DNA of 64,000 nt from NCBI GenBank assembly GCA_024636555.1, contig JAGXGW010000023.1:1-64000 (forward strand), given 5' to 3'. Source of the stretch: Paracoccaceae bacterium. Its GTDB lineage: Bacteria; Pseudomonadota; Alphaproteobacteria; Rhodobacterales; Rhodobacteraceae. Below are positions 5,136 to 53,738 of this stretch, in pieces. Positions within the stretch are counted from its first letter, which is position 1, and every line of letters begins with the position of its first letter. The notes beneath the pieces were generated by a model, which was not told the origin of the DNA, did not search any database, and saw only the letters and a list, made by a program, of their open reading frames with translations. The position numbers and the translations under genes are program-made.

Positions 5136-5489
5136 TCAATCCGGATCGATGACAACTTGTGAATGCTGCACCACCGACCAATCTTCGTGCGCCTTGCGGC
5201 GGTAAACCGAAGTGCACGCGGCCCGAAAGCGCTTCTCGCCTTTTTCGGCCCTGATGCAATAGCCGACAACTATCAGTCCTTCCTCCGGTCTGGACACTGT
5301 CTTGTCCGAGAACGTTACCCTGTCCCATTCGGGCGTCCCGCTAACGGCATTAACTGCGTCTTTGCCGCTGAAGAGGTGGGGCGCGCGGCTTAGCGCCATG
5401 ACACATTCGGGGTCAACCTGTTCGTGATAGCGGTCTTGCGACGCGCGCCACAGGCTTTCTTCAAAGCGCCAAACCCTGTCATCATCCAT
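5136..5489 (-). CDS. DUF4440 / NTF2-like domain protein
   Basis: A 117-aa soluble protein whose pattern (MDDDRVWRFEESLW start, FSDKTVSRPEEGLIVVGY middle, VYRRKAHEDWSVVQHSQ end) fits the DUF4440 NTF2-like family: small single-domain alpha+beta proteins, often stress-induced, with no known reaction. The ATG at 5489 is close behind a GGAAC-N16-CGTT element at 5520-5544, which suggests control by the general stress sigma factor. The 3' end lies next to the transposase remnant, but the length is normal for the family and the gene looks intact. Confidence 0.7.
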   Translation of the reverse strand: MDDDRVWRFEESLWRASQDRYHEQVDPECVMALSRAPHLFSGKDAVNAVSGTPEWDRVTFSDKTVSRPEEGLIVVGYCIRAEKGEKRFRAACTSVYRRKAHEDWSVVQHSQVVIDPD

Positions 5490-5519: not shown

Positions 5520-5544
5520 AACGAGATCGTTGATTTTCAGTTCC
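5520..5544 (-). promoter_or_regulatory. EcfG-type general stress promoter for the DUF4440 gene
   Basis: Read on the minus strand the site is GGAAC, 16 bases, CGTT, an exact match to the -35/-10 consensus of the alphaproteobacterial sigma factor EcfG (GGAAC-N16/17-CGTT). Its -10 end is about 31 bases from the ATG at 5489, a normal leader length. Three similar sites lie in the next 2.2 kb. Confidence 0.7.
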
Positions 5545-5616
5545 AAGACTCTGGAAGCATCGGCTTCGCGGCAGTAAGATCGGCAAGGCAATCTTTCATA
5601 CCCATGGCCTCAAATG

Positions 5617-6129
5617 TCAGCGCTGCTCGATGCACCGCGTCGCCAGAGCCCCTAGCGCGAGGCCGACCGCCAGGGAGCCGAATGTCACAGCCACAGAGTG
5701 AGGCGGCACGGCGTGCTCCCACCCCGGCGAAAGGCGGCGCGGTAGAAGGCGGTAATCGACAACTCCAGCGACCGTCGCGGTTGTTGCCGCTGCGAGCGTG
5801 ATCTGGGACGCTGATCGGTTCCGTTTCTGGTAAAGCCACCAAGTGAAAGGCAGCGCCCAGAAGATCGAAGCCCCATAATTGATCACGGAGCCGACGACTG
5901 TATGGGAGACGTCGATGCTATCAACATCACCGGCTCTTTCACCGTAAAGGACGTGACTGCTGGCATTGATCGGGGCAACAGCACTGCGAGCCCCGCGCCG
6001 ACCAAGCACGCCGAGAGCGCTGAAAACGCACAGGCTCGCAACCGTTCCGACTGCCAGTGCGCGTAGCGCGATCTCAGAGGCGTCCGGCTGCCGCACTTCA
6101 AAGCGTGAAAAATCCTGCGGTGTGTCCAT
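5617..6129 (-). CDS. Small integral membrane protein of unknown function
   Basis: The 170-aa protein has about four hydrophobic segments: one around ALRALAVGTVASLCVFSALG, one around GASIFWALPFTWWLY, one near ITLAAATTATVAGVVDY, and one near the C-terminus (VAVTFGSLAVGLALGALA). Basic residues between them suggest a compact inner-membrane protein. I do not recognise a named family. The gene faces the same way as the DUF4440 gene, 127 bp upstream of it, but has its own GGAAC-N16-GGTT element at 6168-6192, so it is likely a separately started member of the same stress regulon. Confidence 0.65.
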   Translation of the reverse strand: MDTPQDFSRFEVRQPDASEIALRALAVGTVASLCVFSALGVLGRRGARSAVAPINASSHVLYGERAGDVDSIDVSHTVVGSVINYGASIFWALPFTWWLYQKRNRSASQITLAAATTATVAGVVDYRLLPRRLSPGWEHAVPPHSVAVTFGSLAVGLALGALATRCIEQR

Positions 6130-6167
6130 GGCTCCCTCTTTCCGACCGGTTTATCTGTGCAAGAATC

Positions 6168-6192
6168 AACCAGAGCGGCGCGGATTCGTTCC
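6168..6192 (-). promoter_or_regulatory. EcfG-type promoter for the small membrane protein gene
   Basis: On the minus strand the site reads GGAAC, 16 bases, GGTT. It differs from the EcfG consensus only at the first, less conserved base of the -10 element. It lies about 38 bases before the ATG at 6129. Confidence 0.55.
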
Positions 6193-6284
6193 GAGGGACG
6201 GTCCGTTCAAGCGAGTTCCATCAACTTCTCTGTCCTTCGTCGGATGGTTTGGAACAAGCGGCGTGATTCGCGGACGTTTCAGGG

Positions 6285-6410
6285 AAGATGGTCACCATGT
6301 ATGCGGACAAGGTGGACTGCATCTTCATCGACCCGCCCGACAGCACTGGGAAACGAGGGCTGGGCCTATAATGACAACGTCGACGCGCTGATGATCGAGG
6401 AATGGTTGGA
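6285..6410 (+). pseudogene. DNA methyltransferase remnant with frameshift
   Basis: In frame from about 6288 the sequence encodes MYADKVDCIFIDPP, then the frame breaks; one base over it continues as GNEGWAYNDNVDALMIEEWL. Joined, the two match the DPPY region of beta-class N6-adenine methyltransferases of type III restriction-modification and related families (…VDCIFIDPPYNTGNEGWxYNDNV…). The catalytic DPPY reads DPPD and a single extra A in the GGGAAACGAG stretch shifts the frame. Only about 40 codons survive, so this is a decayed relic. It overlaps the promoter used by the following gene. Confidence 0.6.
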
Positions 6411-6418
6411 ACACTGTC

Positions 6419-6444
6419 GGAACATTCCTGCGGTGACGTGCGTT
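6419..6444 (+). promoter_or_regulatory. EcfG-type general stress promoter for the 108-aa protein gene
   Basis: GGAAC, 17 bases, CGTT: an exact match to the EcfG consensus, ending 42 bases before the ATG at 6487. It sits in the tail of the methyltransferase remnant. Confidence 0.65.
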
Positions 6445-6486
6445 TTCTTTGGAGCACGACGTGACACGCATTGAGAGGAGACCGTC

Positions 6487-6813
6487 ATGACCGATCAGGA
6501 CCGGAAGCGACCGAAGGAAGATATTCATCCAGTGATGGATCCGCCGCAGCCGCCCGGTCAGGACGATGACGGGGTGGACGAACCCAAGCGGGAAACAGAA
6601 CCGGAGTCAGAGCCTCACCACCGTCCGGCGCGTCCAGATCCCATGACCGGAGAAGTTCCCGCAGGTCCCGGTGATGCCGGTCTGGAAGATCGGCCCGCGC
6701 TTAATCAGGGTAGTCCGGGCACAAGGCAGATGTCGAACCGGCGTGTCGGCATGATCGTGGGGATCGCCTTGTTGCTGGCGGCCGCAACAGTGATTTTTGC
6801 GACGATCATCTGA
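6487..6813 (+). CDS. Hypothetical protein with charged Pro-rich N-terminus and one C-terminal membrane helix
   Basis: The 108-aa protein has an unusually hydrophilic first 80 residues rich in Pro, Asp, Glu and Arg (DPPQPPGQDDDGVDEPK), probably disordered, then a single helix, VGMIVGIALLLAAATVIFATI, at the very end. This is the layout of a tail-anchored membrane protein with a cytoplasmic charged region. No domain is recognised. GAGAGGAG precedes the ATG, and an EcfG-type promoter lies just upstream, so a role in the general stress response is likely but undefined. Confidence 0.65.
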   Translation: MTDQDRKRPKEDIHPVMDPPQPPGQDDDGVDEPKRETEPESEPHHRPARPDPMTGEVPAGPGDAGLEDRPALNQGSPGTRQMSNRRVGMIVGIALLLAAATVIFATII

Positions 6814-6895
6814 CTGCCGCGCGGTTGTGACAAAGCAGCCCTCGGAACCGTGTCCGAGCCGGTGGGGGGAGCGCTCGAACGCCCCCCGTGTAGGC

Positions 6896-7570
6896 TTACA
6901 GAAGCGCCAACAGTTTGCGTGCAGCTTCCTCGGAGGATGCGGGGTTCTGGCCCGTCACAAGCTTGCCGTCCATGACCACGAACGAACCCCAGTCCGCGCC
7001 TTTTTCGTATGTCCCGCCATTTGCCTTGAGCATGTCTTCGACGAGGAAAGGCACCACGTCGGTCAGGCCAACGCCCTCTTCCTCGGTGTTCGTAAAGCCG
7101 GTCACTGTCTTGCCCGACACGAGTGGCTTGCCGTCAGCGCCCTTTGGGTGCTTGAAAACGGCCGGGGCATGGCAAACGGCACCGACGGGTCGGTCGCTAT
7201 GCGCAAAGGCTTCAATCAGCCGCGTGCTGTCGCTGTCCTCGGCCAGATCCCATAGCGGACCATGGCCGCCGGGATAAAACACGGCGTCAAATCCTTCGGC
7301 ATTGATCGTTGAAAGGACCTCTGTCCGGGCCAGTGCGTCTTGTGCGTCCGTGTCGGCCTTGAAACGCTTGGTTGCTTCGGTCTGTGTCTCATCCGTGTCA
7401 CTGCCGGGGTCCAGCGGTGGCTGTCCGCCCTTGGGCGAGGCCAGCGTGACGTCCGCGCCGGCATCCTTGAACACATAATAGGGAGCCGCGAACTCCTCGA
7501 GCCAGAAACCGGTTTTCTTGCCGGTGTTTCCCAGTTGGTCATGCGATGTCAGAACCATCAGAATTTTCAT
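6896..7570 (-). CDS. DJ-1/PfpI family protein, Hsp31-like (type 1 glutamine amidotransferase domain)
   Basis: The 224-aa length and motifs fit the Hsp31/YajL/DJ-1 superfamily: GFWLEEFAAPYYVF near the N-terminus, YPGGHGPLWDL, and the nucleophile elbow AVCHAPAVF with the reactive cysteine near residue 130, followed by TGFTNTEEE. Members act as glutathione-independent glyoxalases and holding chaperones against carbonyl and heat stress. The ATG at 7570 has an AAGGAAAAACG ribosome site. A GGAAC-N16-CGTT site about 135 bp upstream suggests stress-sigma control. It is convergent with the preceding 108-aa protein gene. Confidence 0.85.
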   Translation of the reverse strand: MKILMVLTSHDQLGNTGKKTGFWLEEFAAPYYVFKDAGADVTLASPKGGQPPLDPGSDTDETQTEATKRFKADTDAQDALARTEVLSTINAEGFDAVFYPGGHGPLWDLAEDSDSTRLIEAFAHSDRPVGAVCHAPAVFKHPKGADGKPLVSGKTVTGFTNTEEEGVGLTDVVPFLVEDMLKANGGTYEKGADWGSFVVMDGKLVTGQNPASSEEAARKLLALL

Positions 7571-8069
7571 GGTCGTTTTTCCTTTTCGTTGCTGTATCCG
7601 AGTGAATAGCGTCGTGGTCGAAGACCCCGCCCTTGGGGCGCAGGGCGAGCGGGCCGACGTGCGGGATGAGCACGCTCACGGGTGCCCACCGATCTTGTCG
7701 AACCAACGCAGGGCAACGCGCCTCGTTCCTTGGCGTTGGACTTTGTGCACAAATGACGCAGGCAACCGCCAGTTCCAATAGTTCCGCAGGTGAACGGCCT
7801 GATTGTCCGATGCAGCGTCTGGGCCGACGGCGTCGAGGGGTGAGCAAGGCGTTGCCAATAATCCGTCCCGATGGTTGCCGCCCGCGCGCTTCATTGATAC
7901 GCACGGTCTGTTCGTTGGTTGTCTTTCCATTTTTCCGGACAATGGATGGTTGAGGTCGACGCAAGCGATGACTTCGCCAAAATCATCCGCATCAGCAATC
8001 GTCACAACAGCAGTCTGCCAAGATGAAGCCCCGGACAATGAAATCAGCAAGCCGGGCAGGGGAAACCGA
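7571..8069. other. Intergenic stretch between the DJ-1 and M23 genes
   Basis: It contains the EcfG-type site for the DJ-1 gene (7705-7729). The M23 frame stays open upstream to 7803, and several minus-strand frames cross it, but none gives a known product or a good ribosome site. A 16-base word at 7753-7768 recurs at 9472-9487, probably by chance. No other structure was recognised. Confidence 0.5.
7705..7729 (-). promoter_or_regulatory. EcfG-type general stress promoter upstream of the DJ-1/Hsp31 gene
   Basis: Minus strand: GGAAC, 16 bases, CGTT, an exact consensus match. It lies about 135 bp from the ATG at 7570, so the leader would be long (about 125 nt), which lowers confidence relative to the other sites. 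Confidence 0.55.
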
Positions 8070-53543: not shown

Positions 53544-53738
53544 CAACGAGGTGATCATTAATAAAACCAATAAGGAGATTTTTGGTTCCAAGTGGGCGTA
53601 ATCTACTTCTGTCGGCGGCGCGTCTGAGAAGATATCGCCAAGCTGCAGCGATCCTGAAGTTGCTCTTTCGCACACAACAAAGACCTTTTAGGTTCGAACC
53701 AGTGACGTGGGCGTTTCAATGGAAAGAGTAGGATCAGA

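Follow-up and report, generated by a model that had tools for sequence, protein, structure and literature searches.

EcfG-type promoters before four small genes of a Rhodobacteraceae genome, very probably part of a general stress regulon

Four promoter-like sites lie within 2.2 kb of the window, the 64-kb stretch of DNA that was analysed. On the evidence of sequence pattern, position and comparison with relatives, each is very probably a sigma-EcfG (ECF15-type) promoter, which would place the four genes behind them in a general stress regulon that extends over the genome. Three are exact matches: GGAAC-N16-CGTT before an NTF2/DUF4440-like gene (5520..5544, minus strand), GGAAC-N17-CGTT before a gene for a 108-aa protein (6419..6444, plus strand), and GGAAC-N16-CGTT before a DJ-1/PfpI gene (7705..7729, minus strand). 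The fourth, GGAAC-N16-GGTT before the gene for a 170-aa membrane protein (6168..6192, minus strand), is a near-match (GGAACGAATCCGCGCCGCTCTGGTT). The -10 element ends 31 bp before the start codon of the 117-aa NTF2-like gene, 39 bp before that of the 170-aa gene, 43 bp before that of the 108-aa gene and 135 bp before that of the DJ-1 gene, the last exceeding what is typical. As in sigma-EcfG promoters, the sites combine a GGAAC -35 element, a spacer of 16 or 17 and a CGTT-like -10 element; they are intergenic, on the strand of the gene they precede, near gene starts, and kept at homologues. The earlier note, made from the letters of the window, had reported these four sites, and their positions and orientations are borne out, with three exact and one GGTT near-match. 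A further GGAAC-N16-GGTT is present at 53565-53589 (minus strand), 207 bp before a 139-aa gene, a distance too great to call.

The three exact matches are the only ones in the window, against 0.77 expected, and all fall inside 2.2 kb. At least three matches were obtained in 6 of 100 shuffles of the window, and the window count by itself is therefore weak. Three exact sites in 2.2 kb would arise by chance with a probability of about 3e-6, before correction for the choice of region; the chance-match figure given in the earlier note is about right. Across the genome there are 64 exact matches to GGAAC-N16/17-CGTT and 97 to the reversed pattern. Since the raw count is below its control it is uninformative, and position was used as the test instead. 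Both the shuffles and the genome-wide count would suit the view that the sites are chance matches, or else signals of another ECF sigma factor or regulator. That view is nonetheless very improbable, given the strong specificity in position, spacing and bases described next, the conservation of the sites at homologues, and their disappearance from congeners without the genes.

For the test of position, genes were called with a simple codon-based gene caller, and the promoter zone was defined as intergenic sequence within 160 bp before a gene on the same strand. Of the 64 matches, 41 are intergenic and 31 are in the promoter zone (27 of them within 100 bp), where 4.7% would be expected from the gene map of the window. 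Among the first 30 matches to the reversed pattern, which served as the control, just one is in the promoter zone. The enrichment is significant by both the binomial (3e-24) and Fisher (5e-6) tests.

The scan of bases and spacers covered 400 kb of the genome, drawn from three long contigs. In the promoter zones the -10 element is CGTT in 11 cases (0.55 expected), GGTT in 5 (0.33), TGTT in 5 (0.40) and AGTT in 1 (0.15), giving 22 matches to GGAAC-N16/17-NGTT against 1.4 expected. Changes at the other -10 positions are near expectation in these zones, as are the -35 variants of GGAAC in the 11 of 16 variants counted, and spacers of 16 and 17 are the only ones clearly enriched. The EcfG -10 element is described in the literature as flexible, with CGTT the commonest form (PMC7083833), which agrees with the NGTT pattern. 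GGTT is among the enriched -10 elements both in the genome and in the genus, so the near-match at 6168-6192 is an ordinary member of the promoter set.

Congeners provide a natural experiment. The phyR-nepR-ecfG genes are present in three of six. In G151 (99% complete) and G156 (97% complete) the genes that flank this block of about 7 kb are directly adjacent, a clean absence with the flanks intact (L325:12189-14994 and L332:8771-11921). In G155, which has phyR-nepR-ecfG, there are 36 promoter-zone matches to GGAAC-N16/17-NGTT in 400 kb against 2.8 expected, whereas G151 and G156 together have 1 in 687 kb against 1.1 expected; these counts are from parts of the genomes, with a dense island among the G155 samples, which leaves the contrast clear in direction but approximate in size. 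The source genome of the window (22 against 1.4) sides with the EcfG-bearing congeners. The lack of enrichment in congeners without the block supports the proposal that the window holds a patch of EcfG-dependent stress genes, as do the positional enrichment and the finding of sites before homologues of each of the four genes. In G155 a canonical EcfG and an EcfG2 occur together. Around the gene for its EcfG2-type sigma factor there is a very dense region, with about 28 EcfG-type promoters in about 44 kb (G155:C8:112400-156400; L361-L363).

The 117-aa protein (5136..5489, minus strand) has no match in Pfam. Its plasmid homologues range from 73% to 29% identity. The annotation of some of them, as DUF4440 or as nuclear transport factor 2 family, agrees with the DUF4440 label applied earlier, which Pfam does not give. 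Before the NTF2-like homologues an exact site is found at -30 in Falsirhodobacter and at -37 in Ketogulonicigenium. In Paracoccus marcusii the site, at -28, is of the TGTT form. There is no site before five other homologues, each less than 50% identical. In Falsirhodobacter the annotation makes the NTF2-like gene the final part of an FAD oxidoreductase ORF (L266:9946-10369); the exact EcfG site is internal to this ORF and precedes the start of the NTF2-like gene by 30 bp.

The 170-aa small membrane protein (5617..6129, minus strand) has homologues in the Rhodobacteraceae and on rhizobial plasmids, and no family match in Pfam or NCBIfam. The GGTT variant is retained 26-29 bp upstream of the homologues in Paracoccus aminovorans and Sinorhizobium medicae, and is also found before the homologue in the genome G285. 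Homologues of this gene adjoin phyR at one locus (L146) and an EcfG-type sigma gene at two others (L148 and L264, the latter on a P. aminovorans plasmid).

No family match in Pfam or NCBIfam was found for the 108-aa protein (6487..6813, plus strand), which is charged and has a C-terminal membrane segment. An exact N17 site also stands 37 bp before the best homologue (45%), in G228 (L131). This homologue and a NepR-like ORF are transcribed divergently, with an exact EcfG site before each of the two (L131:1837-2197); the NepR-like score of this ORF is partly circular, as the ORF is itself part of the profile. Just upstream of the 108-aa gene is a frame-broken stretch (6292-6440) with some likeness to a remnant of a DNA methyltransferase, for which database searches gave no support.

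The DJ-1/PfpI (Hsp31-like) protein of 224 aa (6896..7570, minus strand) matches PF01965 with E=5e-16, and is below the cut-off of the NCBIfam PfpI and HchA models. Of 55 alphaproteobacterial DJ-1 homologues, 15 have an exact site no more than 220 bp upstream, as against 0 of 25 others; homologues were classed as alphaproteobacterial by record title and a few doubtful MAG titles were kept in that group. For example, a homologue in a Roseinatronobacter MAG has the exact site at -133.

Elsewhere in the source genome, sites precede genes for PRC-barrel, CsbD, DUF892, Pmp3, BON, Hva1-TUDOR, transglycosylase-associated, BrkB-like, aldehyde dehydrogenase and RpoH-like proteins. PRC-barrel, CsbD, DUF892, Pmp3 and RpoH genes behind this promoter are typical of a general stress response (GSR) regulon. 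More clusters of sites occur on C6, C15, C33, C40 and C63. The general-stress gene island described in the earlier note is supported as a patch of EcfG-dependent stress genes, but as one cluster among several and not as a unique island. An operon on C15 encodes a GAF-HWE kinase and a PhyR-receiver-like single-domain response regulator behind a GGAAC-N16-TGTT site (L098:7896-9466), and this pair is a candidate stress sensor of the genome. An rpoH-like sigma gene has an exact EcfG site 151 bp before it (L024:1501-2573, contig C20 of the source genome, G000), which suggests that general stress is linked to the heat-shock response.

The reading of the sites as EcfG promoters had been said to fail if the genome encoded no EcfG-type sigma factor, and a search for ecfG, nepR and phyR had been proposed. 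An EcfG-clade sigma gene was found at C33:22343-22909 (L097); phyR and nepR were not found by Pfam, protein or custom-profile searches of the assembly, which is 79.6% complete. The product of the C33 gene, an ECF protein of 188 aa that shares 46% identity with the EcfG of a congener, matches PF22029 with 56 bits and is below the cut-off of NCBIfam PRK12546. The gene has its own GGAAC-N17-CGTT 38 bp upstream, consistent with an autoregulatory site. The tree groups it with EcfG2-like proteins of the family and of Paracoccus plasmids, next to the clade of phyR-linked canonical EcfG and apart from other ECF sigma factors; the joint EcfG clade is supported at 95/84 and 100/100, while several inner branches are weak. 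The locus is not that of a canonical ecfG, as neither nepR nor phyR is a neighbour in L097. The C33 sigma factor belongs to the non-canonical EcfG2 kind, which is often plasmid-borne. On large Paracoccus plasmids (L264, L265), EcfG2-like sigma genes have ferritin-like, PRC-barrel, Ku and trehalose/glycogen genes as neighbours, which may amount to a transferable stress regulon.

Other candidates were set aside. A PhyR sigma-like Pfam match on C8 is another ECF sigma factor, on a separate branch of the tree. An ECF clade at 37-41% identity, present in the congeners (L061-L063, L065, L066, L076) and considered as the reader of the sites, was rejected, since it falls outside EcfG and is also carried by genomes that have no such promoters. 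A NepR candidate on C52 reached only E=0.98 with a sensitive NepR profile and was not accepted.

It is about an even call whether a canonical phyR-nepR-ecfG locus lies in the unassembled 20% of the genome, its EcfG, and not mainly the C33 paralogue, reading the window promoters. Consistent with this, the syntenic flanks of the cassette are likewise missing from the assembly, half of the congeners have the cassette, and G155 combines the canonical EcfG with an EcfG2. Against it stand the failure of the three kinds of search to find nepR or phyR and the true absence of the cassette from two near-complete congeners, by which absence is possible in the genus. A rather less probable alternative is a GSR that dispenses with PhyR-NepR and depends on the EcfG2-type sigma factor only, controlled perhaps through the transcription of that sigma factor or through the C15 kinase and regulator. 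The C33 sigma factor is the only EcfG-clade protein found and is behind an exact site, the C15 kinase operon has its TGTT-variant site, and non-canonical EcfGs of other species showed no binding to NepR or looked constitutively active (PMC3892343, PMC4814048). Yet absence from a draft genome is no proof, these published cases retain the canonical locus too (PMC3892343, PMC4814048), and the congeners without the cassette are without the regulon as well. It can be proposed only tentatively that a full regulon, including the window genes, is under EcfG2 without PhyR-NepR, in a genus that gains or loses the cassette as a block, the promoters vanishing too.

For sigma-EcfG control of the four genes in general, the following course is envisaged. 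Under stress, an EcfG-type sigma factor, presumably released by the stress, would bind RNA polymerase; the complex would read GGAAC-N16/17-NGTT and transcribe the four genes, with starts a few bases past the -10 element. The C33 sigma factor is the candidate reader, alone or with a canonical EcfG missing from the assembly. The gene products may protect the cell, the DJ-1 protein in carbonyl or chaperone defence.

For a lineage of the Rhodobacteraceae in which this stress system has received little study, the analysis resolves the EcfG promoter to single bases and lists its targets, and it ties two protein families without known function (170 aa and 108 aa) to the general stress response. The congeners in which the 7-kb core block is absent, the flanks intact and the promoters also gone amount to a natural knock-out, making it testable what becomes of a large regulon after loss of its sigma factor and whether EcfG2 suffices alone.

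The general stress system is itself already known, and the source genome adds a new member. The promoter, its spacing and the flexibility of its -10 element are those of the PhyR-NepR-sigma-EcfG response of the Alphaproteobacteria (ECF15; Methylobacterium, Caulobacter, Sinorhizobium), and the typical targets and a sigma gene preceded by a site for itself are also alike; unlike that response, the draft genome yields only an EcfG2-type sigma factor, with PhyR and NepR not found. The non-canonical, plasmid-borne EcfG2 of Rhizobium etli (PMC3892343) is similarly an EcfG-clade sigma factor away from phyR-nepR, and homologues of the C33 sigma factor are on large Paracoccus plasmids beside stress genes that include that of the 170-aa protein. 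R. etli differs in that the canonical EcfG1 is also present (PMC3892343), and the two EcfG2s are likened by kind, not as orthologues. In Rhodobacter sphaeroides, PhyR is reported to act mainly in membrane stress and not as a general stress regulator (PMC5830050). Its PhyR-NepR-EcfG locus, RSP_1271-1274 (PMC5830050), is as in the congeners, and the system thus exists in the Rhodobacterales.
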